DNA from: Candidatus Kapaibacterium sp.
GTDB taxonomy: Bacteria; Bacteroidota; Ignavibacteria; Kapaibacteriales; WFXC01
Length of the DNA stretch: 44,198 bases
Direction: 5' to 3'
Assembly (NCBI GenBank): GCA_026996895.1
Contig: JALWJX010000086.1
Coordinates: 1 to 44,198 of the forward strand
The translations under genes and the position numbers were made by a program. Positions 10,804 through 39,400 of the stretch are shown piece by piece. Positions within the stretch are counted from its first letter, which is position 1. Each line of letters opens with the position of its first letter. The notes beneath the pieces are model-generated. The model was not told where the DNA came from. It did no database searches and saw only the letters and a program-made list of their open reading frames with translations.

Positions 10804-10992
10804 ATGGCAGAAGAGCGGCAGCAATCTGAGCGCTTTTCGATGTTGCAAACCATTCTGGATGAACCGATTGTGTTGTTATTCCTGGGCGTTGCGATCTTTG
10901 TCATCTTCTATCTAACGTGGGGCTTGATCGAGGTTTCGAACGTTCCGCAGTTTCCGGAAGAATTGAAGTCGGTGATAATGGGAGGGCAATAG
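10804..10992 (+). CDS. Small one-helix protein, subunit IIa-like
   Basis: 62 residues with a polar N-terminus, one transmembrane helix (about residues 23-43, IVLLFLGVAIFVIFYLTWGL) and a short tail. Its size, single helix and place directly before a CuA subunit II fit the small subunit IIa of B-family (ba3-type) heme-copper enzymes, which packs against subunit I and replaces the first helix of the long form of subunit II. The stop is 2 nt before subunit II. There are no catalytic residues to check, so the call rests mainly on context. Confidence 0.65.
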   Translation: MAEERQQSERFSMLQTILDEPIVLLFLGVAIFVIFYLTWGLIEVSNVPQFPEELKSVIMGGQ

Positions 10993-10994
10993 CC

Positions 10995-11618
10995 ATGACA
11001 CTGATTCCGCCGAAAGAAGGATGGGTGTGGCAGAAGGTAGCGACCGATGAAAAAGGATGGGTTGCGGTAGCAACCTTTGTGTGCTTCTTTCTCTTTTTCT
11101 GGATGATTGGATGGCATTCTTTTGGGCGGCAGAATCCGTCGAACATTACGTATCGGGCATCCGTGCCAGAATATCTGGAGTTGTACAATGCATATCTGGA
11201 GAACAATCAGGTTGGTGAAGACAATGGATTACCAGTCGTTGCGCCGGAGCCCGGTTCACACGTATTCTTTACCGCGCGTATGTGGCAATGGGCACCGGTG
11301 GTGCTACTGAAGAAGGGCGAGACATACACGTTTCATCTGTATTCTCTGGATTTGCTCCACGGTTTTTCCCTCCAGCCGGTGAATATGAACTTTATGGTGT
11401 ATCCCGGTTATGATTACGTTCTGCGGTTTACGCCGACGGAAGCGGGAGAGTATAAGATTGTTTGCAACGAATTCTGCGGTATCGGTCACCATATGATGAT
11501 CGGTAAGATCATCGTAGCAGCCAATGATCAGGAGTATCAGAAAATCCTGCAAGCGTATGAAAGCGAGTATTTTGAAGATGAAGATGGAGAAGTTGTTGAA
11601 CAAGAAGGAGAAAAATAA
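10995..11618 (+). CDS. Heme-copper reductase subunit II with CuA site
   Basis: 207 residues: one membrane helix (about 21-40) and a periplasmic cupredoxin domain. The CuA ligands are complete: His122 in LLHGFS and CNEFCGIGHHMM, giving Cys157, Glu159, Cys161, His165 and Met168. It should receive electrons from a cytochrome c or another periplasmic donor and pass them to the hemes of subunit I. The single helix and short domain are typical of ba3-type subunit II. The ATG at 10995 follows GGAGGGCAATAGCC; the frame is open further upstream, but that would overlap the IIa gene. The C-terminus is a 20-residue acidic tail. Confidence 0.92.
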   Translation: MTLIPPKEGWVWQKVATDEKGWVAVATFVCFFLFFWMIGWHSFGRQNPSNITYRASVPEYLELYNAYLENNQVGEDNGLPVVAPEPGSHVFFTARMWQWAPVVLLKKGETYTFHLYSLDLLHGFSLQPVNMNFMVYPGYDYVLRFTPTEAGEYKIVCNEFCGIGHHMMIGKIIVAANDQEYQKILQAYESEYFEDEDGEVVEQEGEK

Positions 11619-13298
11619 ATGGCAGAATTTCGTACGTGTGACATTACGGGTTTCAAAGTCGATCGATTAGCAGAAAAGTTGATCCGTTCTCACGCTGTGT
11701 GGGCGGTGGTGTCATTGTTGATTGGAATTACCGCTGCTTTGCTGCTGGTCTTTACCCGGTGGCAGTCGGTGCACTTGCTCAGCGCCGATTGGTATTACCG
11801 GATTCTTACCCTTCACGGCACCAATGCGTTGATTTTCTGGATCATCTTTTTTGAAATTGCCGGCTTGTATTTCGGTTCCACAGTCGTGCTCAACGCCAGA
11901 GTGGTGACGCCGCGGATGGCAAAGCTTGGATTCTGGCTGATGTTCGCCGGCTTTCTGTTAACTGACATTATGATTTTTGCTGGAGAAGCTGATGTGCTGA
12001 TGACTTCGTACGTACCGCTGAAAGCACATCCGCTCTTTTACCTGGGAATTATTCTGTTCGCCGTTGGGGCATTGATTGGTGTGATTGTGTTTTTCCTCAA
12101 CATCATTGTCGCGCGGCGGGAACAGAATCTGCGATCTTTGCCACTCTTTACATTTGGATTAGTTGCAGCGGCTATCATTGCGGTGATTAGTATTGCCAGT
12201 GGCGCGATGATTTACATCCCCACCTTTTTCTGGTCCTTAGATATCGGCGTGTTTAAAAATCTGGACCCCGCGACGTACAAACTGATCTGGTGGGGATTGG
12301 GACACGGCTCGCAGCAGATTAATGTCACGGCGATGGTATCCATCTGGTACTTAGTCGCATTTCTGACCGTTGGTGGATTTTCGATCAACGAGAAAGTATC
12401 CCGCGTGGCATTTTTGTTTTATATCCTGTTCATCTGTCTGGCATCGGCACACCATATTCTGGTGGATCCTGCAGTCAGCTCCTCGTGGAAAGTGTGGAAT
12501 ACCAGCTATGCAATGTATCTGGCAGTGCTGGCATCGATGATCCACGCGTTCGCTGTTCCTGCAACGATCGAAGTTGCACAGCGGCAGCGAGGGTATATCC
12601 GGGGATTGTTTGAGTGGTTGGCTAAAGCACCCTGGGGCAATCCAGCGTTTTCAGCCATTGTACTGGCAATTATTGGATTTGGGTTTATCGGAGGAATTAC
12701 CGGCGTGATTTATGGGATGGAACAAACCAACATCATTGTCCACAATACGCTGGCAATTCCGGGACACTTTAAGGGAACAGTGGTCTTTGGGACAACGCTG
12801 ACTTTTATGGGCGTGACCTATTACCTGATCCCGCTGATCTTTCGCCGAAAGATTGTGGGATTTAAGTGGGCACAGATTCAACCCTGGCTCTTTGCTATTG
12901 GCATTGGTATTGTGGCAATTTCAATGATTGTTCTGGGCGTCTTTGGTGTTCCCCGCCGACATTGGGATATTACCTTTTCTGGTGGTCCCTTTACCCATGC
13001 CTTTAATCCCGTTGCAGATTTCTTCTGGGTGACTTTTGCCATTGGGGGAACTTTGGCATTTACTGGTGCGCTCATCTGGGTCCTCATTGTTGTCATCTCC
13101 GTGTTCTTCGGACCGAAGGTTAACGGACCAGAAGATATGCAACTGCCAATTGCATCGCCAGTGGCATTGCCCGCAGAGTCCGGTAAGAAGTTCCTGGCGC
13201 CCGGAACCTTTACGTTAACGTTGGTCTTTTTAGCTGTTTTCATCCTTCTGTTCTTCCTGAACTGGAAGTGGCTGGCAGCGACATGGTACGTCGGATAA
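11619..13298 (+). CDS. B-family heme-copper reductase subunit I, atypical active site (oxidase or NO reductase)
   Basis: 559 residues with about 13 membrane helices. It aligns with ba3-type subunit I: LTLHG (His66, low-spin heme ligand, helix II), YVPLKAHPLFYLG (131-143), CuB ligands His229 and His278-His279 (ASAHHILVDP), and IPGHFK (His383, high-spin heme ligand). Two normally invariant positions differ. The residue four after His229, the Tyr cross-linked to His in oxygen reductases, is Gln233 (GHGSQQIN). The second His of the helix X HxH pair, the other low-spin heme ligand, is Lys385. Loss of the Tyr is a hallmark of NO reductases, several families of which evolved from oxygen reductases and kept a CuA subunit. 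The enzyme therefore reduces O2 or NO; I lean to an eNOR/sNOR-like NO reductase or an uncharacterised relative, but a tree is needed. The SCO gene overlaps the end by 16 nt. Confidence 0.85.
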   Translation: MAEFRTCDITGFKVDRLAEKLIRSHAVWAVVSLLIGITAALLLVFTRWQSVHLLSADWYYRILTLHGTNALIFWIIFFEIAGLYFGSTVVLNARVVTPRMAKLGFWLMFAGFLLTDIMIFAGEADVLMTSYVPLKAHPLFYLGIILFAVGALIGVIVFFLNIIVARREQNLRSLPLFTFGLVAAAIIAVISIASGAMIYIPTFFWSLDIGVFKNLDPATYKLIWWGLGHGSQQINVTAMVSIWYLVAFLTVGGFSINEKVSRVAFLFYILFICLASAHHILVDPAVSSSWKVWNTSYAMYLAVLASMIHAFAVPATIEVAQRQRGYIRGLFEWLAKAPWGNPAFSAIVLAIIGFGFIGGITGVIYGMEQTNIIVHNTLAIPGHFKGTVVFGTTLTFMGVTYYLIPLIFRRKIVGFKWAQIQPWLFAIGIGIVAISMIVLGVFGVPRRHWDITFSGGPFTHAFNPVADFFWVTFAIGGTLAFTGALIWVLIVVISVFFGPKVNGPEDMQLPIASPVALPAESGKKFLAPGTFTLTLVFLAVFILLFFLNWKWLAATWYVG

Positions 13299-14032
13299 TA
13301 GTGCTTGCTGTATGGTGGATACTCTGCCAAATTGCAGGGTGGAGTGATACAGCGAAGCCGTATACCGATCATTCTGGAGCCGTGCTACCCCCTATCGCGG
13401 TTTTCGACGAGCAGGGAGATTCCTTCTCCCTGCTGTCTCTTTTTAACACGCAGCCAGTTTTATTGCTCCCGATTTATACTTCGTGTCCTCATTCCTGTTC
13501 CGCTATTACCGAAGGGTGGAAAGAAGCGCTGGAAACACTGGGAGAGCCAGGAAAGAGCCTCACCGTGATCACCTTCTCATTTGATCATCGGGACACTCCG
13601 GCAGACCTGAAGCGTTTCCGCCGGCGGTGGAAACTGCCAGTGGATAGCTGGTATGTGGTTTCCGCAGATTCCGCAGCGATCGATACGCTGCTGGCAGCGA
13701 TTGGGATGCCGGTGCGCTGGGATGATCGACTGCAAATCTATACCCACCCGAATTTAGCGGTTTTTTTGACAGCAGGTGCTCGAATTTCCAGTTACTATGT
13801 TGGGGTGAGCCCGGATCCCGGATCAATTCGTAAGGCGATTACAGCAGCGTCTCAGAACCTCCAGGGAATATCCTGGTGGGATCGGGCGTGGACCCAGTGT
13901 TTTGTCTATGATCCAGTGACTGGAGAGATTCAGTTTGATGTTTCAATCCTTATTCACCTGGCTGCTGGAATCATTGTTCTGAGCTCCCTGATCTTCTTTT
14001 TCCTTCGCAATCGGGTCAGAGCAGCGCGGTAA
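13283..14032 (+). CDS. SCO1/SenC-family copper chaperone, membrane-anchored
   Basis: 249 residues from the ATG at 13283, inside the end of subunit I. A signal sequence or N-terminal helix (1-20) is followed by a thioredoxin-fold SCO domain with copper ligands Cys68 and Cys72 (YTSCPHSC) and His155 (YTHPNLAVFL). A C-terminal transmembrane helix (about 219-241) with a basic tail anchors it, which is less common than N-terminal anchoring. SCO proteins load copper into the CuA site, and in some B-family systems help CuB. Overlap with subunit I and 1 nt spacing to the next gene show it is part of the operon. Confidence 0.92.
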   Translation: MVRRIIVLAVWWILCQIAGWSDTAKPYTDHSGAVLPPIAVFDEQGDSFSLLSLFNTQPVLLLPIYTSCPHSCSAITEGWKEALETLGEPGKSLTVITFSFDHRDTPADLKRFRRRWKLPVDSWYVVSADSAAIDTLLAAIGMPVRWDDRLQIYTHPNLAVFLTAGARISSYYVGVSPDPGSIRKAITAASQNLQGISWWDRAWTQCFVYDPVTGEIQFDVSILIHLAAGIIVLSSLIFFFLRNRVRAAR

Positions 14033-14033
14033 A

Positions 14034-15527
14034 GTGCAAGTAACAACGGTGCTGAGAATGCAGAGTTTTCTTGTGAAAGGACATCGTTTGTATTTGCGTG
14101 TTGCAGCGAAACTCAATTGGATTACCGGAACCGATGAGAATCCACTGTATTTTTCCGGACAGCTTTCCTTTGTCACTTTTTTGATCGCCGCTCTGTCGGG
14201 AATTTATCTGTTCATTTTCTTCCAGATCGATCCGGCAGTAGCATATCAATCCGTTGAGGAGATTTCATCGACCCTTCTGGGAAGTTTGATGCGGGGAGTA
14301 CATCGGTACAGTTCCGATGCCTTTATTGTTTTTAGCCTGATTCATTTTCTCCATACGTTGCTGCTGCGGAAATACCACCTGAAAATTGCGTGGTTTTCTG
14401 GTATCGTGATGATCTTTGTAATGGGATTGATTGGATTGTCGGGCTTTATCCTGGTGTGGGATGCAAAAGCAAAGTTGCTGGGGCTGTTGTCTGCTCAGTT
14501 GTTGACAACGTTACCAATTTTTGAACCAACGTTGCCCATTGCTTTTGTGCTCAAAGATCCGCATTTGTTGGGAGGCTTCTTTCGCGTGATGCTATTTGCC
14601 CACTTGTTCTTCTCCCTGGGGGTGCTGATTCTCTTCTGGATTCACGTGATGCGGATGAACGCTGTGCGGTTGTTGCCACCGCGGAACATTACGCTGGGTC
14701 TTCTGGCGCTGTTTGGTATCCTGGCGCTGATTGTCCCCGTCCGCAGTGATCCACCAGCGACCAGTTTATTTTTGCCGCTGCATACCACGTGGGATTGGTA
14801 TTACTTTGCTGGCTATCAACTGTTGCGCTGGTTCTCACCAACACTGGTCTGGATTCTCTGGGTCGCTGCTGGTATTGTATTGTTTGCCTTACCGTTTCTA
14901 CCGAAAGTACAGGAGCGATTAGCGCTTTCGGTTCCAGAGATTGATGTTGAGCAATGCGATGGATGCCGACAGTGTTATCTGGATTGCCCCTATTCTGCCA
15001 TTACGATGCGTCCCACAACGTCGGAATTTCTGGGACAGTCGCAACGACCCGTTTTCAAAGCTTCGATCGATCCAGCGCTGTGCGTTCGATGTGGCATTTG
15101 CATTGCTTCCTGTCATCTTCAGGTGATTTCTGCACCGATGCCGGAACCACTGCCTGCGCAAGAAGCAGAAGCATCGCTGGTGATTTATGCCTGTGGCTCA
15201 TCCCTGACGGTAGAGGAACTGCACGAGCTGCGCAAATATGGGACGGTCCAGCCACTGGCGTGCATTGGCGATCTGCATCCAGCAATGGTGGCTGAGCAAT
15301 GGAGAACAGGGCAATACAGTGGGGTGATGTTATTGCATTGTGAGCGATGCTACTATCGGCTGGGACCTCAGTGGACGCAATTGCGGCTGAGCCGGTACCG
15401 CCGTCCTCAGTTGCCGAAGGACGTTCCAACAGAGAGCATTGCAATGTGTCCAACGTCAGCTTCCGTAGCTGAATGTCTGGCAGCGTTTCAGCAACAAAGC
15501 GAGCAGATAAATGAGCCTGTTCAGTGA
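14034..15527 (+). CDS. Cytochrome b - 2x[4Fe-4S] ferredoxin - MvhD/FlpD-like fusion protein
   Basis: 497 residues (GTG at 14034; an ATG at 14058 would remove eight residues). Residues 1-215 are a bc/b6f-type cytochrome b: heme ligand pairs His90/His104 and His190/His204, each 14 apart, on helices B and D. A short subunit IV-like part follows, with WDWYYFAGYQLLR (253-265) where cytochrome b has PEWYF..Y..LR. Then come two [4Fe-4S] motifs (Cys308, 311, 314, 318 and Cys350, 353, 356, 360). The last 110 residues resemble the iron-sulfur protein MvhD/FlpD, with four cysteines at 387, 410, 436 and 439. It could move electrons between quinone and a soluble Fe-S or flavin partner at the membrane. No Rieske protein is nearby. 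The next gene overlaps its end by 17 nt. Confidence 0.85.
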   Translation: MQVTTVLRMQSFLVKGHRLYLRVAAKLNWITGTDENPLYFSGQLSFVTFLIAALSGIYLFIFFQIDPAVAYQSVEEISSTLLGSLMRGVHRYSSDAFIVFSLIHFLHTLLLRKYHLKIAWFSGIVMIFVMGLIGLSGFILVWDAKAKLLGLLSAQLLTTLPIFEPTLPIAFVLKDPHLLGGFFRVMLFAHLFFSLGVLILFWIHVMRMNAVRLLPPRNITLGLLALFGILALIVPVRSDPPATSLFLPLHTTWDWYYFAGYQLLRWFSPTLVWILWVAAGIVLFALPFLPKVQERLALSVPEIDVEQCDGCRQCYLDCPYSAITMRPTTSEFLGQSQRPVFKASIDPALCVRCGICIASCHLQVISAPMPEPLPAQEAEASLVIYACGSSLTVEELHELRKYGTVQPLACIGDLHPAMVAEQWRTGQYSGVMLLHCERCYYRLGPQWTQLRLSRYRRPQLPKDVPTESIAMCPTSASVAECLAAFQQQSEQINEPVQ

Positions 15528-16104
15528 TATTCGAGCAGTTCTCAGTACTAAACGGCAGCAGAAACAGCGGCAGGAAGAGAAGCTCCATCATCCGAAGATT
15601 CAGGTGCTGGGGCATTATCCGACAAATTTTTTCCTCCTGACTGGGTCCATCGCGATTCTGGGCGTACTTCTGTGGGTTGGCAGCACGTGGGAGTATCACT
15701 GGTACCGAACAGATACCGGGTATTTGGTGTTTGCCATTTCGTATGTTTCCACTACGGTAGAGCAATACCACCCAAAAGCGAAGCTAAAGCATATGACGCA
15801 GAAAGTGGTCATTTCCCAGCGCCGTTCACCGATCCGATTGACAGTTTATGATGAGGACAGGGACACCGTCTTGTACGATGCGATCCATCGCCCGCGCGGA
15901 ATTCGGGAAGATGCTGCCATTATGTTCTACGAAGAAATTCCGTGGGTGGGAAAAGTATCGGTCACGCTGGAGGAAACAGCTTTTCCAGAAAAGCGACAGC
16001 AGTTGCAACATATCATTGTTTCCCCAGGGGAAACGGTTGTGGTATTGACAGAAGACAACGCTTTGAAGGTTGTGGGAAGCGCATTTCCGGAGAGCACAAG
16101 ATAG
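15511..16104 (+). CDS. Unknown one-helix membrane protein, last gene of the respiratory operon
   Basis: I do not recognise this 197-residue protein. A basic, Gln-rich N-terminus (1-35) precedes one transmembrane helix (about 40-60); the remaining 135 residues are probably extracytoplasmic and beta-rich, with SPIRLTVYDEDRDTVLYDAI and VSPGETVVVLTEDN. No cysteines or heme motifs occur in the soluble part, so it is not obviously an electron carrier. The ATG lies within the end of the cytochrome b fusion gene (17-nt overlap), so it is almost surely co-translated and may be an accessory or assembly subunit. The last six codons and stop are imperfectly duplicated 67 nt downstream. Confidence 0.7.
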   Translation: MSLFSDIRAVLSTKRQQKQRQEEKLHHPKIQVLGHYPTNFFLLTGSIAILGVLLWVGSTWEYHWYRTDTGYLVFAISYVSTTVEQYHPKAKLKHMTQKVVISQRRSPIRLTVYDEDRDTVLYDAIHRPRGIREDAAIMFYEEIPWVGKVSVTLEETAFPEKRQQLQHIIVSPGETVVVLTEDNALKVVGSAFPESTR

Positions 16105-18152: not shown

Positions 18153-21100
18153 TTACCGTTGCGATCCTACTGCACCATACTGAACGCGTTGGCTTGGGCG
18201 CACGATTGAGAGGATGTACTGCTGCATGGTAACAAGGCGGACAAGCTGCTCTTGCAGACGGAAAATTTTTTGCTGGAGTTGCTCAATGGTTGCCTGCTGT
18301 TGTTCGATGATGCTGTGCTGTTGCTGGAGTGCCGCCGTCAAAATGGGAATGAGCTGTAGGTAGCTGATACTCCACAGATCCGATGCATTCTGCGGTGCTT
18401 CCACCGCTTCAGGTACCACCTGTGCCAGTTGTTGTGCTAAAAATCCGTAGCGGTCTTCACCCGTCGGCGATACCATCAATTTGCCGTTTTCCCAGCGGGT
18501 ACTATGCTGATAGTAGTGTACCGGTTGCATTCGGAGAACGACCGCCAGCGCACTGTCAATAGGACGGATACGGCTTTTGATCCGATCGTCTGAATACGTG
18601 ACCCAGTCATTTGCTCGCGCCTTGCCAATGGTATTGGTCGTATTATTGGGAAGTTCCAGTGCATAGGTTGGCGAAGAGACGTTGATTCCGACAACAAAGG
18701 TTTGTCCGTAGGGGGCGATCAGGAAAGCATTGGCAGTCGTAATTGCTGATGTGGCTAAGGCATATCCCCATACGAAGGTATGGGTTGCGGAAGTTGAGAG
18801 ACACATACTCTTGCCGCCGACCCAACTGTAGGCTCCGGCAGCAGTGTTCGATTGTCCATTGGCAACGGCGCTGTAAGCTCCAGCAGCGTTGTTCGATGCT
18901 CCACCGCCCACGGCACTATAGTTTCCAGTCGCCTGATTGGCGAATCCACCGAGCACACCGCTGTAATTGCCGGCAGTACGATTGGAGTCCCCACCGGCAA
19001 TAGCAGATCGTTCTCCGGACGCAACATTGTGGATGCCACCAGCAATGGCAGCGTAGGCGCCAGAAGCAGTGTTGGATGCACCGCCACCAATTGCCGAAGC
19101 ATTGCCCGAAGCAGCATTACTCAGCCCACCGCCAATAGTGCTATGACTTCCTGAGGCAGTATTATCCGCTCCACCGCTGACAACTGTGTAGGCACCAGAA
19201 GCGGTGTCGCGGTATCCACCGCCTACCGTTGCGTACAGAGCAGACGCAAGATTTTCCTTGCCGCCACCAATGGTCCCATAGGAATTGGATATCCGGTTTG
19301 AACGTCCCCCACTAATCGTGGCGTAGCGGGCAGAGACTGTATTACTGAATCCACCGCTGATAGTACTTGCTGAATCTGAAACTTTATTGACCGATCCACC
19401 GCCAACGAAGGCGAAGGGAGCGGAGGCAGCGTTGTAAGCACCGCCACCGACAAAGGCATAATCAGTGGAGGCGGTATCGCGATATCCACCGACTGCAGTG
19501 CTGTACTGTCCACCAGCTTTGTTGTAAGCACCGCCACCGGTGAGACTATAGCTTCCGGTTGCCTGATTTCTGTACCCACCTACAACGGCGCTATAGCTTC
19601 CCGTTGCTTCGTTGGTCGATCCGGCACTCACGCCACTATAGTTGCCAGTGGCTTTGTTGGAATATCCTCCGGTAACACTGCTGTAACTTCCCGTACTTTC
19701 ATTAGAAGCCCCACCAGCGATAGCAGCATATTGACCCGATGCTGTGTTGCGGTTTCCACCGCCAATGAAACTGTAGTTTGCTGAAGCCTTGTTGGAGTTT
19801 CCACCGCTGATGACTGCGTACGAACCGGAGACCGTGTCCTTATATCCGCCGCCGATGTGAGCATAGTTGCCAGCAACCAGATTACCATCGCCTCCGACGA
19901 TACTCCCTGCGGTGCCGGATACTTTGTTGTGCTGTCCGCCCAGAATTGCACCCCAGTCGGCAACGACGGCATTGGAATCTCGAAAGCTGGGACCACCACC
20001 GCCACCGACCACACCGTATTTTGCAAAGACGACATTATGGTGACCACCGCCGACGAAACTCCAGGGTGAGTTGTTCCCAATGATGTTATAGTCTCCGCCA
20101 GCAATTGTCGAGGAAGTACTGTGGGAAAAGATAATGTGATATTGCCCGCCGCCGATTGTGCTATAGGGGCTGGAGATAGAATTGTTATATCCGCCCCCGA
20201 TAACGTCGCTTGCAGCATAGGTTTCATTAGCGAATCCGCCACCGACAAAGCACCCATAATCCCCTCGATTGAAACTACCACCCCCAATCGTTGCAGCGAA
20301 TGCAACCGCTTGGTTGTAATATCCGCCACCAATAAAGGCAAATTCGGCGAGAGGACTGATTGAATTGCTGTATCCACCAGCAATAGTTGCACCTGGACTG
20401 CTAAATCCAATGGTGTTAATATTTCCACCACCGATGAAACTGTAATTGGAGTTTTCCTGAATGGTGTTGTATTTGCCGCCGACCAGGGTGCTGTACGAAG
20501 CGGAGGCTCTGATGGTATTCTCATAACCTCCCCCAATAGTACTCAACTGAGCACTGGTAACAATCGTATTGTTTTCTCCGCCACCGATCGTTGCAGCAGT
20601 TGCAGAGGGGTAAATAAGGTTGCGCTTGCCCCCGCCGATGCTGGCGTACGGTGACTGAATGCGGTGTTGCTTGCCACCCAGAATTGCACCCCAATCAGCA
20701 GCGATGGAGTTGGAGTCCGCTGCGCTGCTTCCGCCGCCGCCGGCGATGACAGCGAAATTCCCCCGTGCTTTGTTGTAGCCACCACCGCCAATTCTTGCCC
20801 CTTGCTGCTGCGCGAGGTTTTTGTATCCACCGCCAATACTGGCATAGGTTTCCCCAACAGTGTTGCTATCGCCGCCGCTGATGCTTCCGTAGCTACCCGT
20901 GATGGTGTTCAAGCGACCACCTCCAACGGCAGCGTAGGAAGCGGAAGAGCGAATGGCGTTACGATCGCCACCACCAATCACTCCATACGATGCGTTGGCT
21001 TGAATCTCATTCGCATTGCCGCCGCCGATTACACTATATTGAGAACCCGTGGCAACGAGATTTGTTTGTCCGCCTGTAATGGTAGCAGCCGTTGCGTTGC

Positions 21101-23123
21101 CGTAGATGGTGTTTTGCAGTCCGCCGATGATTGTGCCATAAGGAGCCTGAATACGGTGCCGCTTGCCGCCCAGGATGGCGCCCCAGTCGGCAGTGATCGA
21201 ATTAGAGTCGGTAATGCTGCTCCCACCGCCGCCGGCAATGACAGCAAAATCGCCGTAGATCCGGTTGAAGTTTCCACCGCCGATAGTGCCGTAATCGCTG
21301 GAAATAATATTGTGTTCGCCACCGCTAATGGTAGAAAATTGGGTGTTGGCTTTGATCGTGTTTGAGGCGCCACCACCGATCGTTGCGCCTCTGGCGTTGG
21401 ATAAGATTTCATTGACACTTCCGCCGCCGATCGTTGACCATTGCGCAAGGTTCCCAATGTTGTTATATTCGCCGCCGCTGATGGATGCGCCACCAGCAGA
21501 ATTGCCAATGTCATTGCCCAAACCACCACTGACTGTAGCGCCGGGAGAGAGCATTCCGATGTCATTTCCTTCACCACCGCTGATCGTTGCGGATGTGGAA
21601 TGTTTGCCAATGTCGTTGTTGTCTCCACCGCCAATGGTTGCTGTGACAGCAGAACTGTCGATGTCGTTGTAGTATCCACCGCTAATCGTTGCATAATCAC
21701 TCTCAGCCAGAATATCATTGTTGTAGCCGCCGCCAATGGTTGCGCCATCGGCGTCTTCTCCAACATCATTACGTTCGCCACCGCTGATTGTTGACCGTGG
21801 AGCGAAGTCTGCAATACTATTGTAGTAACCACCTGAAATGGTGCTGTTCCAACTGTAAGTGCCGATGTCATTGTATTTGCCGCCACTGATGGTGCTGTGT
21901 TCAGATTCTGACTGTATGGCGTTGCCCCATCCACCACCAATGACGGTGTACGGCGAACGAAGTTCGTTACTTCGTCCTCCGCCGATCGTTCCGTAATCCG
22001 CATTGTAGAAAATATCGTGTGAGTAGCCACCTCCAATGGTACCGCGGTTGCTCTCGATAGTGTTGAAATATCCACCGCTAATTGTCGAGTAATCTCCGGA
22101 AACCTCGTTGCGCCGTCCGCCGCCAATGACGCTATAGTCTCCGCTGGCAACATCGTTGTTGCTGGTTCGCACCATTTGCAGGTCGATTGCATACTTTCCG
22201 CGAGCATTGCCACCAGTGTCTCGCTGAATGCTTCCGTTCGTGTTCCACTGAAATACCTGCTGGTTATTGACCCGAATGCGAAGAGGCGCGTTGTTCAACG
22301 TACCCAGAAATTCATTGCTGGAAATCAGATTGCCGCTGGTTGTCCATCCGGCTGTTCCACTGGTTCCACCGCCTCCGCTGACCGTTGCCGGTTGCCATTG
22401 GGAGCCATTCCATTGCAAAACCTGTCCGGTGCTGGGCGCCGTGTTAGCTACCGGATAGCCTCGAAGGGCAATTACCGTAGCGTTGGTCACTGGTCCAGTT
22501 AAGTCCCCGCCGGCGTTCTGGGTCGCACCTCCACCGATCGTTGCTGGCTGCCATTGCAAACCGCTCCACTGAAGCACCTGTCCAGTGCTGGGTGCAGCCG
22601 TTGCAATAGGACGTCCCTGCAATTGAGCAGCATTCCATAATGGTTGATCAGCCTGTGCTGAGATCGTCAGGTTTGTTGCTGAAGCACTGAGCGTGATTCC
22701 CGTTCCAGCCGTAAAGAGCGGGAATATGTTGCCAGTGGTCACGGTTTCTACCCATTGAGAGCGGAAGCTGTAGGGAGTAACGCCCAGCGGAATACGCGGG
22801 GATAGTTCGTTGCCGTTCCCAATTGTAATGCCCAGGTAGTATTGCTGCCGGAAGTCTAAGTTGAGCGCCGTATTCGAGCCCAACAGGACGGAAAACAGAC
22901 CGTTCTGAACCGTTACATTTTGCGTTTCACTCCAGAGCGCAGTACCACCGGAACTGGTGGTGTACAGTTTGAAGGTCAGTTGATAGGTGCCGTCTGGAAC
23001 AGCGACGTTGCCGCTTGTCGTGAGCATTCCTTGAAAGGGAATTTTCGAAGGAAAACTTTGCGACCACAGAGAAACAGTGCCCAGAATCAGCAGCAAAAAC
23101 GTGTACCGTATCGTTCCTTTCAT
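18153..23123 (-). CDS. Giant secreted beta-roll fibre protein with C-terminal S74 intramolecular chaperone
   Basis: 1656 residues. A signal peptide (about 1-22, cleavage near LWSQ) is followed by an N-terminal domain common in Bacteroidota fibre proteins (IPFQGMLTTSGNVAVPDGTY, later SPRIPLGVTPYSFRS). Two linker repeats APSTGQVLQW.G.QWQPAT come next. Residues about 320-1437 consist of roughly 70 repeats of 14-19 residues with core TIGGGxxN, like the YadA-head left-handed beta-roll. The last 150 residues are an S74/endosialidase-type chaperone: SDDRIKSRI at about 1510 holds the Ser and Lys expected for self-cleavage, LAQQLAQVVPEAV follows, and a terminal coiled coil of Gln-rich heptads ends it. 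Such chaperones trimerise the fibre and then cut themselves off. No other phage gene is near, so this is probably a cell-surface fibre rather than a tail fibre. The ATG at 23123 follows GAGGGACGCG. Confidence 0.88.
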   Translation of the reverse strand: MKGTIRYTFLLLILGTVSLWSQSFPSKIPFQGMLTTSGNVAVPDGTYQLTFKLYTTSSGGTALWSETQNVTVQNGLFSVLLGSNTALNLDFRQQYYLGITIGNGNELSPRIPLGVTPYSFRSQWVETVTTGNIFPLFTAGTGITLSASATNLTISAQADQPLWNAAQLQGRPIATAAPSTGQVLQWSGLQWQPATIGGGATQNAGGDLTGPVTNATVIALRGYPVANTAPSTGQVLQWNGSQWQPATVSGGGGTSGTAGWTTSGNLISSNEFLGTLNNAPLRIRVNNQQVFQWNTNGSIQRDTGGNARGKYAIDLQMVRTSNNDVASGDYSVIGGGRRNEVSGDYSTISGGYFNTIESNRGTIGGGYSHDIFYNADYGTIGGGRSNELRSPYTVIGGGWGNAIQSESEHSTISGGKYNDIGTYSWNSTISGGYYNSIADFAPRSTISGGERNDVGEDADGATIGGGYNNDILAESDYATISGGYYNDIDSSAVTATIGGGDNNDIGKHSTSATISGGEGNDIGMLSPGATVSGGLGNDIGNSAGGASISGGEYNNIGNLAQWSTIGGGSVNEILSNARGATIGGGASNTIKANTQFSTISGGEHNIISSDYGTIGGGNFNRIYGDFAVIAGGGGSSITDSNSITADWGAILGGKRHRIQAPYGTIIGGLQNTIYGNATAATITGGQTNLVATGSQYSVIGGGNANEIQANASYGVIGGGDRNAIRSSASYAAVGGGRLNTITGSYGSISGGDSNTVGETYASIGGGYKNLAQQQGARIGGGGYNKARGNFAVIAGGGGSSAADSNSIAADWGAILGGKQHRIQSPYASIGGGKRNLIYPSATAATIGGGENNTIVTSAQLSTIGGGYENTIRASASYSTLVGGKYNTIQENSNYSFIGGGNINTIGFSSPGATIAGGYSNSISPLAEFAFIGGGYYNQAVAFAATIGGGSFNRGDYGCFVGGGFANETYAASDVIGGGYNNSISSPYSTIGGGQYHIIFSHSTSSTIAGGDYNIIGNNSPWSFVGGGHHNVVFAKYGVVGGGGGPSFRDSNAVVADWGAILGGQHNKVSGTAGSIVGGDGNLVAGNYAHIGGGYKDTVSGSYAVISGGNSNKASANYSFIGGGNRNTASGQYAAIAGGASNESTGSYSSVTGGYSNKATGNYSGVSAGSTNEATGSYSAVVGGYRNQATGSYSLTGGGAYNKAGGQYSTAVGGYRDTASTDYAFVGGGAYNAASAPFAFVGGGSVNKVSDSASTISGGFSNTVSARYATISGGRSNRISNSYGTIGGGKENLASALYATVGGGYRDTASGAYTVVSGGADNTASGSHSTIGGGLSNAASGNASAIGGGASNTASGAYAAIAGGIHNVASGERSAIAGGDSNRTAGNYSGVLGGFANQATGNYSAVGGGASNNAAGAYSAVANGQSNTAAGAYSWVGGKSMCLSTSATHTFVWGYALATSAITTANAFLIAPYGQTFVVGINVSSPTYALELPNNTTNTIGKARANDWVTYSDDRIKSRIRPIDSALAVVLRMQPVHYYQHSTRWENGKLMVSPTGEDRYGFLAQQLAQVVPEAVEAPQNASDLWSISYLQLIPILTAALQQQHSIIEQQQATIEQLQQKIFRLQEQLVRLVTMQQYILSIVRPSQRVQYGAVGSQR
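18810..22160 (-). repeat. About 70 tandem beta-roll repeat units inside the fibre gene
   Basis: Counting the cores xIGGGxxN, xISGGxxN and close variants gives about 70 units of 42-57 nt. Units in the N-terminal part are longer and contain DI/NDI spacers; those in the C-terminal third are a regular 15 residues of the form NxASGxYSxIGGGxS. A larger module (SNSx..ADWGAILGG) is inserted three times. Confidence 0.9.
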
Positions 23124-23698: not shown

Positions 23699-25051
23699 TC
23701 ACTCTACAGGAAGTGTTGTCTCAAATCGCTCCATTTCAAAAGTCACCAGTTTCGGAACCAGTGATTCCAGTCCGATTTTTCGGAGGAGATAGGGAGGAAA
23801 GCTGCGGAACAGGAGGCGTATGCGGAGTTTGCAGGGTCCTTGCACGGTGGATGCAATGGGAATGCGGAAGTGGACCATACGAGTTTCAAAGGGTGGAATA
23901 GTCCGGTCATAGATCGCGTCTGCTTCCCAGAAAAAGGGAATTTCTTTGCCGTTCCGCAACGGAATTCCCCGGAAGACAATCAACTGAGAATCAAGCGGTA
24001 GAAGTCCTTGCTGAACGTACTCACTGTGATGAGTTCGAAGATCCCCGTGGGGGTCGGTATCTCCTGACAGGAAGATGGTGTCCCCAGTTGCCTGATCGAT
24101 GAGCAAACATTCAAGCCACATCTGGCGCTCAAAAATGGATCCTGTTGGAATATTGTGGCCCGTGATGGTATTACTGAGCTCCACTCGCACAGAAAGGGTG
24201 GTGTTGCGTTGAATGAATTCGGGTGCAAAGACTGTCATTTTCAGAGCATACTGCAACAAATAGGACACGCGCTGGATCATTTCATCCCGTCCAGGGAAAT
24301 CCACCAATGGTATGTCCACGCCTTCCATAATATGACTATGCACTCGTTCCCGCTCCGGACCATTGACAGCGACTTTTCCCGGTGAAGATTTCATATGGCA
24401 CGTCTGACACTGGATGTTCCGTCCCGGATACACACTGTTCTGCCATTCAGTGAATGTCCGCTCAATAAAAAATCCTGCGGGAGTATGGAAGTCGTGACAC
24501 GATTTGCATACGATGCTCTGATTATAGCGTTCGTCGTAGCGAGATTGGTGAAAATCATTGGGGACCGGATCGGGAATCGGTCCTCGATAGACAGAGTCAG
24601 CATAAAGGGCGATAACCCCCCGGGATGGTTTTGCATCGATGACCATTTTGTGGCAGGCGTCACACGTAATTCCTTCGTGAGCAATTGGCGGAAGCATAGC
24701 TTTGCCGCCTACCTCCATTTTTTCACCTAAAAGTGGTAAAAGTGGGCTATGGCATTCAATGCAGAATTGATCTAACAGTCCGGACGATCGTTGCCGACCG
24801 ATGCTGTCCAGAGCAAAAAAGACTGGATCGACGAAAGCATAAGCGTGCATTGACATTTGCCACTCTCGATAGTGTTTCGGGTGGCATTCCTTGCACTGTT
24901 CGGCTGAAAGCAGCGTTCGGCGGTAGAGCGCAATGGAATCCTGGAATGATGGAGAGGATGGCGCCATCATTTGGTGGTCACACTGCGCAAGCAGCAGTCC
25001 CAGAATCAGAATGGCGGGAAGTCCAAGAATATACAAGATCTTATTCCGCAT
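23699..25051 (-). CDS. Pentaheme c-type cytochrome lipoprotein (cytochrome c554-like)
   Basis: 450 residues from the ATG at 25051. A lipoprotein signal ends in LLLAQC (Cys24). Five CxxCH heme sites follow in the first half: CKECH (with HxxxW nearby), CIECH, CDACH, CKSCH and CQTCH. The arrangement, with ITCDACHK and NIQCQTCHMK, is that of the cytochrome c554/multiheme family. The C-terminal 200 residues lack hemes and look like a beta-sandwich (GHNIPTGSIFERQMWLEC), probably structural. It is likely a periplasmic or surface electron carrier; its donor and acceptor are not evident. The start codon lies inside the end of the FGE-like gene (11-nt overlap), so the two are translationally coupled. 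Confidence 0.9.
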   Translation of the reverse strand: MRNKILYILGLPAILILGLLLAQCDHQMMAPSSPSFQDSIALYRRTLLSAEQCKECHPKHYREWQMSMHAYAFVDPVFFALDSIGRQRSSGLLDQFCIECHSPLLPLLGEKMEVGGKAMLPPIAHEGITCDACHKMVIDAKPSRGVIALYADSVYRGPIPDPVPNDFHQSRYDERYNQSIVCKSCHDFHTPAGFFIERTFTEWQNSVYPGRNIQCQTCHMKSSPGKVAVNGPERERVHSHIMEGVDIPLVDFPGRDEMIQRVSYLLQYALKMTVFAPEFIQRNTTLSVRVELSNTITGHNIPTGSIFERQMWLECLLIDQATGDTIFLSGDTDPHGDLRTHHSEYVQQGLLPLDSQLIVFRGIPLRNGKEIPFFWEADAIYDRTIPPFETRMVHFRIPIASTVQGPCKLRIRLLFRSFPPYLLRKIGLESLVPKLVTFEMERFETTLPVE

Positions 25052-26153
25052 TGCGAACCAGGCGAAATCCAACATTAAATGTTTTCCGGAAAGGAGGTAA
25101 TTTGAAAAAACGAGCAGACGCACGTAAGTAGTGGATCGGATCGGACCAGGAACCACCGCGAATAGTACGTGGAAGATCTTTCAGCGAGAGCGGTCCAGTC
25201 GGATCTGTGTCCGGAGATCGTTGATAGTAGGTTGCATCAGCAACATCCCACACCCATTCGGCAACATTGCCGTGCATATCATACAGTCCCCACGGGTTCG
25301 GGGCCTTCTGTCCAACAGGATGAGTCTGGAAGTCGGCGTTACCGCAGTACCACGCAATGGAATCCACCAGGGAAATATTTTCGCATTGGAGATAGGGATT
25401 ATCCAGCGAGCCATTGGCAAAGTCTCCCATCCTACCAGCCCGGCACGCATATTCCCATTCTGCTTCGGTTGGGAGGCGATATCCATTGGCAGAAAAGTCG
25501 CACAGAATAGTATCACCACTGAAGCGATAGCACGGCGTTAAACCAGCGCGTAGACTGAGGCGATTGCAGAAATCGATCACTTCATACCAGCTTACCTGTT
25601 CCACCGGGCGATGGTCACCCTGGAACCACGACGGGTTGTATCCCATCAGTTGTTGCCATTGTTGCTGAGTAACTTCCGTTGTGGTGATCCAGAAGGGACG
25701 GGAAATGGTGACACGGTGAACTGGACGTTCTTCATATCGAAGGTCTGAGCCCATCCAGAAGCTGCCGGCAGGAATTCGCACCATTGAGAATTGCGGTAGT
25801 GTGCGGCGGATGTTTACATCGCGTGCTGCCGAGCCTAAAAGATCCTGGCTCCGATTGTCATAGACTCCGACCCATACCGTGAAGCTACCTTCCGCGGTAA
25901 ATTGGTGGTATACGGTATCGGGTTGGCTCTGGATAGAAAATGTCCCGTCGCCAAAATCCCAGTAGATCCGAACGTTTGCCAGCCGACGGTTGCTATGCAG
26001 GACAAAAGCGTACAGGGTATCGGGAAAACCTTCGGTTCCGCCCAAAAGAGAGGTTCGAATTTCAAGTTGCAGGGGGATCTGGTCCGAGGGTGGAAGTGCG
26101 GTGTCTGTACACTGCAGGAGGAACACCAGCCCAAGAGGAAAAAAGATCCGCAA
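25041..26153 (-). CDS. FGE/SUMF-domain lipoprotein with PKD-like N-terminal domain
   Basis: About 370 residues. The start is uncertain: upstream codons in this frame belong to tRNA-Ala, and the first start that leaves a lipoprotein signal is the TTG at 26153 (RIFFPLGLVFLLQC). A PKD-like domain (YWDFGDGTFSIQ) precedes a formylglycine-generating-enzyme-type domain: MVRIPAGSFWMGS, VSWYEVIDFCNRLS, GYRLPTEAEWEYACRAG, WGLYDMHGNVAEWVWD, TIRGGSWSD and VGFRLVR. Many secreted relatives are not formylglycine enzymes but sugar- or peptide-binding or oxidising domains (as in gliding protein GldJ). Overlap with the pentaheme cytochrome suggests the two lipoproteins act together. Confidence 0.85.
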   Translation of the reverse strand: MRIFFPLGLVFLLQCTDTALPPSDQIPLQLEIRTSLLGGTEGFPDTLYAFVLHSNRRLANVRIYWDFGDGTFSIQSQPDTVYHQFTAEGSFTVWVGVYDNRSQDLLGSAARDVNIRRTLPQFSMVRIPAGSFWMGSDLRYEERPVHRVTISRPFWITTTEVTQQQWQQLMGYNPSWFQGDHRPVEQVSWYEVIDFCNRLSLRAGLTPCYRFSGDTILCDFSANGYRLPTEAEWEYACRAGRMGDFANGSLDNPYLQCENISLVDSIAWYCGNADFQTHPVGQKAPNPWGLYDMHGNVAEWVWDVADATYYQRSPDTDPTGPLSLKDLPRTIRGGSWSDPIHYLRASARFFKLPPFRKTFNVGFRLVRNAE

Positions 26154-33356: not shown

Positions 33357-33426
33357 AACTTCGGATTAGAAAAGAGTGGCAGGATGCAACAGCAGACAAG
33401 TCGAACAAACGGTGAAGGATGGGGTT

Positions 33427-36400
33427 ATGGGAATTGATACGGCTTCTGTATCAAATCAATTAGCTTTTCGACCTGAGCAACCTTCCAGTCGAAACCAATC
33501 CGTGCTGCATGCAACCCCATTCCGGCACCAGGGGACTGTTCATTCCAGAACCTCGAAAAAAAATACAGAAATAGAAACAAAGGGAGTACAGGGTAAGATG
33601 ACCGTATTGCAACGACTATGGGCACAATTGCTGAGAATCGTGGTCCAGGTATGGCAAGTCGTTGGTCGTGCCGCAGATGCTGTTGATCTCCGGATTATCG
33701 GGCGAGTTGCCACGGTAGCCTGTCTTGCGGGCGTGCTGTTGTATCCACAGGAGGGGTATGCTCAGACGATGATTCAGTGGATTGGTGGGGGAGGTGTAAA
33801 GAGTTGGACCGATCCTGCAAACTGGCAGGGTGGTAATGTGCCTGATAATGTGTCAGAAGGAGCATTGTTCCCGGCGGGATCTCCGGTTACAGTAATAAAT
33901 GTTCCAACAACAACTATTGGGAAGTTACTTGTCGATGTAGGTGCCCAGGTGACCCTGGTTTCTACAGGAACGCTGACAGTAGGGAATGGTGGCTCAGGTG
34001 TGGATGTGATTGTAGCAGGCGGAGGAGAGTTAACGCTGAATATGGATATTCAGGTCAATAGTCCTGACCAGTTCCAGGTTCTGGCTTCTGGGGTGTTAAA
34101 GTTTGCTGGTTCGAAACAGGTGACAGGAACGGGAACCTTTATTCTGGACCCAGGAGGACATCTCTACATTTCGGCTACACAGGTGACAGGAGCTGCAGGG
34201 AATATCAATACCAATACTATTACGCTGGCGTCGGATGGACATTACTATTTCACTGGTACTGGGCAGAATACTACAGGATTGCCAGCAACAATTCAGGGAA
34301 GTATGACCGTACAAAGCGGATCGGATGTAACTTTGGCAACTTCGTATAATGTCAATGGTGGTATTATTCACGTGTATGGAACGATCATTTTTGATGCAAG
34401 CAATATTTTCAGTGGTGCTGGAGGTACCTTTAATCTGTACTCCGGAGCAACATTGGAAACAGCAAATCTTCAGGGAATCAGCAGTAGTGGTAGTACTGGG
34501 AGTGTGCAAACAGGAGCACGGAATTTTGATGGAGCTGCTCATTATGTCTACAATGGGGCTGCAGGACAGATCAGCGGGGATGGTCTGCCAACAACCATCA
34601 GTGGGAGTTTGACTGTTGATGTCAACGGAGTATGGCATTTGAGTACCTCACCAACCATTACGGGAGATTTCATAGTAACCAACGCCAATGCTGATATTGA
34701 CGTGGATGATGAGACACTTACATTGTCCGGAGATGTTACCATTACTTCAGGTGCGGAGTTTACCGCCAGTACGCCAGATGCAGGAAGCATTATTGTAAAT
34801 GGTAGCGGGGCGATTACAGGACAGATTGATTTTGTAGCTGGATCTATTCTCAATACGTTCCAATTGGACCGAAACGTGAATATTGCTGCATCGAACCTGA
34901 CAATTGGTACTACTGGTACCTTGGCGCTTAATCAGGGAACCTTGGCGATTGGTTCGCCGCTAACGCTCTATGGGACAACGCTGACCTGCTCGGCAGGCGG
35001 TAAGTTGCGGGGATCTGCATCAGCGTGGGTTGAAGTTTTGCCCGGCGCTGCTGGCGATGTCTATTTGAATTTTGATGCAGGATATCAGACGCTCCACCAT
35101 ATTACGGTGAATCGGGCGGGACAGACCGTCTATTTGTGCAGTGATTTAACCTTGGCGAGTTCGGCAACGCAATTTGTGGCCGGAACATTTGATTTGAATG
35201 GCAATCATTTGACGATTAACAATAGTACTAACGCTTTTGATTTCACCGTTACCACTGCTACCTTTGCAGGAGATGCCAATTCGAATTTGACAATTAACTT
35301 TGCCAATGTCAATGATAATGTCAGCGTAAGCTTTGCAAATGCGGCTGCTACTATTGGTACGTTGACCCTTAATCTCAGTGGTGGTGCTGGTGCTTTGACG
35401 ATTACGGGGGCAGCATTGTCCGTAACCAATTGTAATGTGACGGCAAATACTTATCAATTTGCCCTGGGAGATGGACTCAACTGGACGCTCCACAATACGT
35501 GGACAATCTGGGATAACGCTAACATTGCCACCAACGCCTCGCAAATCACCTATGGTCCAACATCGACGCTATGGTATGCAGGAAGTACTCAGCGTTTGAC
35601 GACGCCGGAACTTGAGAATGCCGCTACGAATGCACCACACAATCTCTTTGTGGGCAATAGTGGAGGCGTGGTGCTGACTGCCGATTTGACTGGAGCAAAA
35701 GCCATTGATGGTAGCTTTACCGTTTCCGCTGGATATCTGGATCTGAATAGCTACGATCTGACGTTAAATGGTCCAATCACGCTGAGCGTGGCACAGCCAT
35801 TTATAGGTGATCCGGCGTCGGATCTGACCATTGCCAATGCGGGTGCCATTTCGGGAACCTTTGCATTCCAGAGCAATCAGAACCTTGGAAACTTCACAAT
35901 GAATCGTGCGGGGGAAATAGCGACCGTTGCTACTGTGACGGTCAACGGAACGTTGCTCAATGCGGCTGGAACGATCCATATCGCACCGAATCACTCGCTC
36001 GCAGTTGCAACCGGTGGAACTATTACGAATAGCGGTGGAAACTATAAAGGATCGGAAACGTCATCACTTTATATCTATGCCGCAACCATCAGCGGCGACT
36101 TTAACTTCATTGGACAGCATCTACTCAATTTGACAGTGAGCTCTGCATCACAGATTGTGACGGTCAATACGTTGACGTTGGCAACCAGCGGTACGCTCAC
36201 TTTGAACGATGGAACGCTGAAGATCAAAGGAGGTGAAACTCTGCACATCTATGGTACTATTGCTACTTCAGGTACCGGATTTTTTGGTGGAACGTCCACT
36301 TCGACATTGATTTATTACCTTGGTGGATCTGCTTCTTTTGGTTTCAATCCTACGCTCAATGATTTGGAGGCGTTGGAGTTTCGTAATCACTTTAGTAATG

Positions 36401-39400
36401 TTGTGACTGTTACCTTGGATAATACGGTCAATATCTATGCGCAAGTGGTTGTAGAAGAAACAGGAAGCGGAAATGTAACATTAAATGGTGCGAACAATCT
36501 CAACTTCCAGAATAACACGGATTTCTACATCATCAATGATCCCACGATTAATGGAACGCCGACCTACGGTAGTGGCGTAGATCTGTGGTACCAGGGAACA
36601 GTGGCGCATACTACCGGTGGCGAGTGGGGTGCCGATCCGAATGGTAATGTGTATGTTGCGAATACTGGTGGCGTAACCCTGGGAGGTAATGCAACGTTGA
36701 TCAGTGGGACGGTGTTTGTTACCAGTGGAACCGGGAACTTAGATCTCAACAATAATAATCTGGAACTGGGTGTCGGCGGTACGCTGGCGGAGACAACAGG
36801 ATCGGTCGTTGTGAACACCGGTGGAAGTACCACCGCTACAGTGCATGCCGGTCCGTTGACCACGAATGCCACGCTTGATACACCGGGTCCAGCAGGATTA
36901 GGGATTGATTTTGGCAATAGTGGCTTGATCGGTCCCATCGAAATAGACCTGATTCCGGTATCAACAACCCTGAGTACATCGCCGTTGACAACCAGTATTG
37001 TTCGGATTTACAAGGTCAGTACAACTCAAACTAATGTGACGGCAAAGGTACGGATTAGCTATCTTTCTGATCACTTGAATGGACTGGATCCAAATACCTT
37101 AGTATTCTACACCAGTTCCGATGGGATTAACTGGACTGAGCGGCATTCGATAGATCTTGTTCGCGGAAGTTCCGGTGCCTACAGCTATGTAGAGGGGACG
37201 CTGACAGGATTGTTTGCCTCTCCGATGTACTTTACCTTAGGAACACCAGGTCCTGCCCATTCCTTAGCGTACTCGGTAACTTCTGCAACGGCAATCGAAG
37301 GCTTTAATGGCGGTGTGACAACCGGCATTGTGTCCGGGCAGCCGGTTACGGTTACCGTTGGAACCTTCAGCGTGGGTGGAAACCTTGTGGCGACCAATGC
37401 AACGACGACGTTGACGTTTTCTTACAGCGGTCCGGAAGCTCCGAATTTCCGGTTCAGAGTTGGGTCAAGCTTGCAGGCAACGCAAGATGTTACGTTGTAC
37501 GCCGGTGCTTCTTCGACTACCAACTCTATCATCTTTGAGTACATTGGTACATCTGCACAGGCAACAACCGTGACGGTCGTAGTGTCCAATCCCTCCTTAG
37601 TGGCGACCTCCATCACGATCCAGGTTACGCCGACGCCAGCACGACATCTGGCATTTTCGACGACGGCATCAACAGCAACTAATGGATTTAACGGTGGAAA
37701 CTTAACAGTTAATGAGAATTCTCCTGTTTCGGTAACCATTGGAACGTTTAGTGCTGAAGGATACCTACGCTCTACCAACGCGGATGTTACCATAACACTG
37801 ACAAGTTCTGATCCTGCGGTAACGCTTAGAGCCAATGGCGGAGTGTTTGGCTCTACCACCACGATGACGATCGTAGCGAATACGTTCTCCAGTACGGCAA
37901 ATATTGAATTTGATTACACTGGGGTTGCACCATCGGTTGTTATTACCCTTACGGCTTCGGCGGCCAGCAATGTGCTAACAGCAACTTCAATCAATGTGAC
38001 CGTTGTTGGCAAGCCCGCTTCGATTATTGCCTATAGTACAACCAGCACAACAGGAACTGATGGAGTCCCATCGGGAACGGTGAATTCGGGCGTTGCCTTT
38101 ACGGTGACGAATGGAACGTTCTCGGTCGATGGAGACCTGCGTGAAACGACAGCGAATTTGACGGTGAATTACAGTGTCACCGGACCGTTTATGATCTATG
38201 CAGGAGCGGTCGGGACGATTTATGCCAATACGGCAGTTACGAATCATTCCATCACGGTGGTCTATACAGGAACCGGAACGACAGCGGTCGTGACAACTCT
38301 GATAGCGACGGGTGCAAGTATTGGATCCACGACGCAAGCAACGATCACCGTCCAGCCGGATCCGGCAGTCCGGTTGGCATATTCGACCACCAGTTCTACG
38401 GGAATCAATGGATTCAACGGTGGATCACTCAGTGCGGACGAAGGTGTTGCCTTCCCGGTGACGGTCGGTTCGTGGAGCGCCTTTGGTCACCTGCGTGCTA
38501 CAACAGCAAATACAACAGTAAATCTCACGGTGAGCAGCACGCTCTCGGGCGTGTCAATTGTGCCCAATACAACAACGTTGAATGCAGGTGCAACTCATAC
38601 GACTGGCAACTTTACGCTCAATTATAGCGGTGCTGAAAATGATCCGTTCAATGTGATTGTCACAGCCGCCAGTGCTGTCTATCCATACAGCACCAGTGTC
38701 ACGGTAAACTTTGATCCGAAGGAGCCAACGAAGCTGGCATTCAGTGTGAATAACGGGAATACCAGCGCTACCTCTGGATTTAACGGTGGAAACCTGACGG
38801 TGACCGAAGGAACTCCTGTACCAGTGACGGTCAGCTCCTTCAGCCCGGATGACTGGTTCCGTGAAACCTCGGCCAGTGTTAATGTAACAATCAGTGTCAA
38901 TGCCGGGGTTCAGGTGCGACAATCGGGTGGTGTATGGGGAAGTAGTACTACCGCCCAGCTTGCAATCAACACGTATCAGGTGAGCTCCAATCTGGAATTC
39001 CGTTACTTCGGAACGCCTGCTAATACGGTTGCAACGGTTACGGCGTCGGCACCGGGATATCCTGTATCGACAACCATTTCGATTACGATTACTGGTCCGG
39101 CAGTGCGTCTGGCGTATAGTTCAACTTCCTCATTCGGTACGGATGGATTCGATACCTATCCAAACCCGATTATGGAAGATCAGCCGTTTACGGTGACCAC
39201 TGGATCGTTCAGTATGTTTGGTGAGTTGCGCTCCACAACTGCCGATGCGGTCATTGCCTTTACCTATGGACCATCCGCAGTAATTAGTGCTGGATTCAGC
39301 GCAACGCCAGCGTCGACGACGCTGACCGCAGGCAATAACTATGTTGAAACGACAATGACCTTCGGTTACACTGGTCCAGCAACGATGGGAACCGTTACAG

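Follow-up and report, generated by a model that had tools for sequence, protein, structure and literature searches.

The window, by which we mean the whole 44,198-nucleotide stretch of Candidatus Kapaibacterium DNA analysed here, carries an operon in which a CuA-type subunit II gene is followed by genes for a heme-copper subunit I, an SCO-type copper chaperone, a fusion of cytochrome b with iron-sulfur domains, and a small protein with one transmembrane (TM) helix. The features assigned from the sequence are listed below, all on the forward (+) strand.

10917..11618, +: eNOR subunit II, one TM helix plus a CuA cupredoxin domain, motif CNEFCGIGHHMM (NCBIfam CoxB, 4e-13)
11619..13298, +: eNOR subunit I, a heme-copper reductase related to the B family that carries Gln in place of the catalytic Tyr (GHGSQQINV; Pfam COX1, 1e-63)
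13268..14032, +: copper chaperone of the SCO1/SenC family, with a C-terminal CxxYDPxTG segment and a TM helix at residues 227-245 (Pfam SCO1-SenC, 2.2e-7)
14034-15527, +: triple-fusion open reading frame (ORF), GTG start, 497 aa, no internal stops
14034..14921, +: diheme cytochrome b, residues 1-296, b6-like helices A-D plus two subunit-IV-like helices (profile, Foldseek)
14301..14345, +: heme ligands His90 and His104 on helix B, invariant in 18 fusions and aligned with RSVHRWSASM...H of b6
14601..14645, +: heme ligands His190 and His204 on helix D, invariant in 18 fusions
14793..14795, +: Asp254 in the ef loop, apparent counterpart of the PEWY acidic residue, invariant in 18 fusions while the loop around it drifts
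14931..15131, +: two-[4Fe-4S] ferredoxin domain, residues 300-366, Cys308/311/314/318 and Cys350/353/356/360 (Pfam Fer4_6, Fer4_7)
15174..15437, +: MvhD/FlpD-like domain, residues 381-468, Cys387, 410, 436 and 439 (profile matches, conserved Cys)
15511..16104, +: small protein with one TM helix and a domain that is probably periplasmic, matched by an HMM built from the C-terminal module of the relatives (24 bits, E=1e-6 for a search space of 1000)

An intact single-copy gene

The fusion ORF begins just past the stop of its 5' neighbor, the SCO gene, and its 3' end overlaps the downstream ORF (15511..16104) by 17 bases. There is one copy in its own genome, and a scan of genome contigs returned a single fusion match, a full-length copy with 96% identity on another Kapaibacterium MAG contig (L031). 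Between these two copies dN/dS is 0.079 across the full ORF, and the three parts taken singly give 0.04-0.13, which indicates purifying selection. Beyond the window and L031, the domain order is identical in 18 further genomes or records, and even distant fusions, at 27-34% identity, keep that order; the redox residues are conserved at 27-31% identity. An earlier note on this DNA had described one polypeptide uniting three modules and had named a frameshift artefact as the danger to that description; the L031 copy, the dN/dS values and the 18 further loci rule out a frameshift or a chimeric-assembly join of two genes, and the single polypeptide stands.

In most relatives the one-TM module is joined to the cytochrome b-ferredoxin-MvhD polypeptide, but in the window it is detached as the ORF at 15511..16104; the last module is also its own ORF in G211. 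A stand-alone copy of this module occurs at L098:9181-9588 (G296), with no eNOR operon in the surrounding 18 kb.

Elsewhere in the window, a 1656-aa secreted protein with dozens of 'ISGGxxNxI'-type repeats is encoded at 18153-23123 (-) and is probably a surface fibre. An open frame of more than 3600 residues, rich in Thr/Ser repeats, runs off the contig end at 33370-44198 (+) and would encode a giant surface or secreted protein, and a multiheme c-type cytochrome matching the cytochrome c554 family lies at 23699-25156 (-).

Redox domains and topology of the fusion

The N-terminal part is recognizable as a cytochrome b at several levels of comparison. Pfam Cytochrome_B matches residues 38-206 with 39.6 bits (cutoff 27.2), and the cytb6_f_IV model matches residues 219-293 (2.4e-4), where helices E and F correspond to subunit IV of b6f. 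A profile of nine relatives searched against solved chains found cytochrome b6 (4e-30) and bc-type cytochrome b (5e-16). Foldseek, run with an AlphaFold model of moderate confidence (18-row alignment, pLDDT 71, pTM 0.60; an earlier model from 9 rows, pLDDT 52, was set aside), returned complex III cytochrome b among its matches, and the cytochrome b part was the only part matched among the 50 matches listed. The heme pairs 90/104 and 190/204, which had been read from the window's letters alone, proved invariant in 10/10 aligned fusions and again in the 18-row alignment. The degenerate PEWY motif reported with them (WDWY) narrows to a single residue: the PEWY position reads WDWY, LDYF, GDWW or GDHW among the fusions, the aromatics after the acid vary, and of the motif itself the acid (D254) alone is retained. 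The GxxLVWD part of the cd-helix motif is also kept in the 18-row alignment, and these two retentions together fit a quinone site on the periplasmic side. The cytochrome b part is probably quinone-linked. Moreover, the fusion was the sole match when four fusion genomes (G000, G171, G135, and G092) were searched with Pfam Cytochrome_B, and no bc1 complex was recognized in them by that search; the fusion is therefore not a spare bc1 subunit.

All eight ferredoxin cysteines (8/8) are invariant over 18 rows. In the MvhD-like domain three cysteines are invariant over the same rows, and the fourth, C439 in the Kapabacteria and Defluviimonas, is mostly another Cys in the remaining relatives; their domains hold at least four Cys, one placed elsewhere than in the window. 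The window's domain contains the four Cys presumed to bind a putative [2Fe-2S] cluster. Its FlpD (PF02662) score of 16.7 bits (E=0.0076) falls below the cutoff of 22.3, which three relatives pass (39.4, 37.5, and 33.6 bits) at 31-37% identity to the window in this domain. Furthermore, a 10-sequence profile of the C-terminal domain finds the solved MvhD chains 9sw2_D (9.6e-9), 7bkb_F (2.3e-7), and 5odc_D (1.1e-6). The MvhD/FlpD relationship was among the claims of the earlier note, which would have abandoned it had profile similarity been lacking; the similarity is there, in the relatives' scores and in the chains found by the domain profile. As for topology, which the same note had left to prediction, the loops after helices D and F are Arg/Lys-rich and positively charged in most rows, and in the relatives a seventh TM helix follows the MvhD domain and leads into another module. 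The charged loops and the extra helix place the Fe-S part on the cytoplasmic side, which it is predicted to face.

The neighboring reductase and the distribution of the fusion

The genes upstream had been recognized only as part of a terminal reductase operon, and the reductase can now be assigned to a family. The closest PDB relative of subunit I is the ba3 oxidase, whose GHPIVYFWL is replaced by GHGSQQINV, with Gln in place of the catalytic cross-linked Tyr. Gln occupies this site in 27/27 eNOR rows, and Tyr (GHPEVY) does so in the A-family oxidase that the genome also encodes. The active-site residue is characteristic of family, being Gln in eNOR, Asn in sNOR, and Asp in gNOR (PMC8756737 Table A4). 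An sNOR (norSY-senC), first considered from gene order, was rejected on this residue, Asn in sNOR versus Gln here. Directly upstream of subunit I lies subunit II, which is CuA-type with a C-x3-C-x3-H-x2-M motif; it shares 43-49% identity with its counterparts in other fusion clusters, and since those alignments begin at residue 27 (Met27), its true start is probably at about 10995. The window's genome has only three heme-copper enzymes; it also encodes a nitrite reductase of the cytochrome cd1 type (NirS, E 5e-124) that carries a c-type heme motif, and NirK lies less than 10 kb from the fusion cluster in G274 and G242. On the combined strength of the Gln site, the CuA subunit II, and the nitrite reductase context, the operon is read as an eNOR operon and the reductase beside the fusion is an eNOR-family nitric oxide reductase, expected by this assignment to reduce NO to N2O. 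The NirS of the window's genome (L060:9502-11217, G000:C105) is fused to a c-type cytochrome, and a RIC/YtfE-like protein is encoded two genes off.

The association between fusion and reductase is strict in one direction. All 20 fusion loci (20/20) have subunit II, subunit I, and an SCO-type protein directly upstream, some of the last being SCO-like as judged from the protein start alone. These loci comprise the window, L031, 17 other genomes of the phylum (class of G274), and a Defluviimonas plasmid; a sample of 296 genomes of the phylum yielded seven of the further copies and 245 genomes of one class another 10, and the locus in G459 is split over two contigs. Distribution beyond the window's phylum is represented by that one complete plasmid and one published ORF. 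On the sequences, the bc-type diheme cytochrome b and the 'C-terminal ferredoxin + MvhD' wire, known otherwise from HdrA/MvhD, are combined in one protein that is always encoded with eNOR II, eNOR I, and SCO, which is how the proposed survey of domain order and neighbors turned out. There is no case of a fusion without eNOR (G296 has a lone C-terminal module).

In the other direction the association is partial. Within the same sample of the phylum, eNOR (44-46% identity) is present without a full-length fusion in five genomes; in three annotated neighborhoods (G008, G050, and G085) the fusion is absent beside eNOR, as it is from the neighborhoods of eNOR on Thermomicrobium and Thermus plasmids. 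The fusion consequently marks a subset of eNOR operons, and the chemistry of eNOR can as such do without it. In a tree of eNOR subunit I the fusion carriers cluster, with a deep order that leaves the number of origins unsettled. A divergent Rrf2-family regulator lies upstream in most of the phylum's other fusion clusters, and G211 encodes a hemerythrin-domain protein in the same region as its fusion cluster; both add to the NO-related context.

Two peculiarities of gene content deserve mention. Some of the related clusters encode, upstream of the eNOR genes, a second heme-copper-like protein of divergent sequence and ~470-500 aa that matches Pfam COX1 (L033:4357-5811, with equivalents in L032, L034, L036, L037, and L087-L092; absent from the window). 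By eye it is missing the paired helix VII His that bind CuB, and it may be a heme-only paralog. The CxxYDPxTG segment and TM helix of SCO are C-terminal in the window (13268-14032) and in Defluviimonas and near the N-terminus in L033:8378-9349, as if permuted.

The constancy of SCO brings in the main rival to an electron-supply role, namely that the fusion is a maturation reductase in which cytoplasmic electrons would cross the membrane in a CcoG-like manner and keep Cu(I), or the cysteines of SCO or CuA, reduced during eNOR assembly. CcoG, with its two [4Fe-4S] clusters, has a comparable part in the assembly of cbb3 oxidase. We give this reading a modest minority probability. It draws on the adjacency of SCO in 20/20 loci, on the heme O synthase and SCO beside the fusion in Defluviimonas, on the fact that fusion-less eNOR clusters are also without SCO where annotated, on the fused or adjacent one-TM module, and on the precedent of CcoG, for which cupric reductase activity and ferredoxin-type motifs have been published (PMC8267372). 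SCO co-occurrence is as strict as that of eNOR, and a maturation role fits it too; SCO shares its operon with the catalytic subunits, and so this link cannot separate electron supply from maturation. What weighs against a pure copper reductase is the retention of the Qo-type acid and most of the cd-helix motif, which would be superfluous to it.

Electron partners, proposed role and known systems

The earlier note had looked to a cytoplasmic Hdr-like or flavin partner, possibly with HdrA-type flavin bifurcation, and this part of it found no support. An HdrA2 model search of 13 genomes found no HdrA core; within the fusions it matches the ferredoxin and MvhD part (model ~570-770, up to 78 bits), and its remaining matches are short generic Rossmann or ferredoxin sequences. 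HdrA as partner is rejected on its absence from these 13 genomes, and no flavoprotein or NAD(P) module was recognized within the fusion clusters. Nor was an electron donor gene found in the fusion cluster, and no cytoplasmic reductase travels with the fusion across the 20 loci. The absence of a Rieske gene nearby, on the other hand, was rightly noted: there is none in the fusion clusters and none anywhere in G171 and G135, and the three Rieske-fold proteins of the window's genome, which has no other cytochrome b, are all on other contigs. Rieske as partner is rejected on the same grounds, and because G171 and G135 are without any Rieske protein, Rieske-assisted bifurcation is unlikely as a general mechanism. 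Together these absences remove an Hdr partner and canonical Rieske bifurcation as general explanations.

A variant of quinol bifurcation would do without the mobile Rieske head. Here quinol would be oxidized at a Qo-like site, one electron going to eNOR, with CuA in the Rieske role, and the other passing along the b hemes into the cytoplasmic clusters and on to a low-potential acceptor. The invariant Qo-side acidic residue accords with this, as do the n-side Fe-S wire, which would replace the Qi reaction, and the very strong oxidant (NO) at hand; bifurcation with NAD(P) has also been proposed for the anammox Rieske/b complexes (PMC12954380). The absence of Rieske from the cluster and from G171 and G135 counts against it, as does that of an HdrA core from the genomes tested and of a recognizable NAD(P) module from the cluster. 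We know of no case in which a fixed CuA domain takes the place of a mobile Rieske head, and we consider the reading improbable. The full form of the claim, in which a bc-type cytochrome b without Rieske would split quinol electrons between eNOR CuA and the ferredoxin-MvhD wire and NO reduction would drive the formation of low-potential reductant, we hold to be slightly less probable again.

Similarly remote is a quinol dehydrogenase feeding a cytoplasmic enzyme, in the direction of Qmo or Nar, and merely co-regulated with eNOR. Quinol dehydrogenases that pair cytochrome b with n-side Fe-S clusters pass electrons inward, and MvhD-like domains dock partners; the fusion recalls such enzymes and has such a docking unit. 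Its association with eNOR is nevertheless complete, 20/20, and a cytoplasmic reductase companion is absent.

The reading we prefer, to which we assign an even chance, is that the fusion serves eNOR specifically, as a transmembrane subunit or partner for electron transfer, linking a cytoplasmic donor to quinone and/or a periplasmic acceptor. In the arrangement envisaged, the ferredoxin/MvhD part would lie in the cytoplasm, the heme pairs would span the membrane, and the acidic Qo-type residue would lie on the periplasmic side. A cytoplasmic carrier or dehydrogenase, neither HdrA nor encoded in the cluster, would dock on the MvhD-like domain; for comparison, electrons from the hydrogenase of HdrABC-MvhADG reach the C-terminal ferredoxin of HdrA by way of MvhD (PMC9012536). 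Electrons would then pass from the presumed [2Fe-2S] cluster by way of the two [4Fe-4S] clusters into the n-side heme and across to the p-side heme. They would leave either for quinone or straight for a periplasmic acceptor serving eNOR CuA, so that eNOR could turn 2 NO into N2O. This eNOR subgroup would thereby gain its own link to the cytoplasm and quinone pool in cells without a bc1 complex. The least certain step is the direction, for which we lean slightly toward entry from the cytoplasm into the membrane over a flow from quinol into the cytoplasm. The published ORF RME88945.1, which adds a cytochrome c domain, fits an exchange with periplasmic carriers, or a periplasmic exit.

Little has been described of how eNOR-type NO reductases, which produce the greenhouse gas N2O, receive their electrons. 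A fusion so strictly encoded alongside them in cells without bc1 points to an unrecognized electron-entry (or maturation) module, and shows that the HdrA/MvhD wire has been put to use outside flavin bifurcation. Each part of the fusion and the eNOR family were known already, and one related ORF is listed uncommented in a paper's appendix. In the open-access papers searched, which do not take in subscription eNOR papers or the work on the Rhodothermus enzyme (itself an eNOR-family member), we came across no account of the fusion as a regular component of eNOR operons.

With cytochrome b6/subunit IV and bc1 cytochrome b, the fusion shares the four-helix diheme core, the His pairs on helices B and D, the cd-helix motif, and the ef-loop acid; it differs in having no Rieske or cytochrome c1/f, in the Fe-S/MvhD part at its n-side C-terminus, and in a PEWY motif cut to the acid. 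The CcoG/FixG cupric reductase is likewise a membrane protein with two [4Fe-4S] clusters encoded with a heme-copper enzyme, and its family is absent among the Pfam/NCBIfam matches listed for the fusion. To our knowledge, CcoG/FixG proteins have no b hemes, no cytochrome b and no MvhD domain, which also speaks against the maturation reading. HdrA2 (an HdrA-MvhD fusion) and MvhD/FlpD have the same succession of ferredoxin and MvhD-like domain (model ~570-770), but the window fusion is without the flavin HdrA core of HdrA2, and its wire is attached to a membrane cytochrome b. The anammox Rieske/cytochrome b complexes with NAD(P) oxidoreductase (PMC12954380) also wire a b6-like cytochrome b to cytoplasmic Fe-S, whereas they are multi-subunit, with Rieske, c-type hemes, and a flavin NAD(P) module. 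ORF RME88945.1 (PMC8756737 Table A3), compared by its domain list and not discussed in that paper, has cytochrome b6, Fe-S, and FlpD domains in one ORF, yet carries an extra C1 cytochrome c domain. Finally, the window operon has in common with the eNOR family (PMC8756737, PMC4653789) the active-site Gln of subunit I, the CuA subunit II, and denitrification genes in the genome, and it differs from the fusion-less clusters of G008/G050/G085, Thermus, and Thermomicrobium in adding SCO and the fusion.
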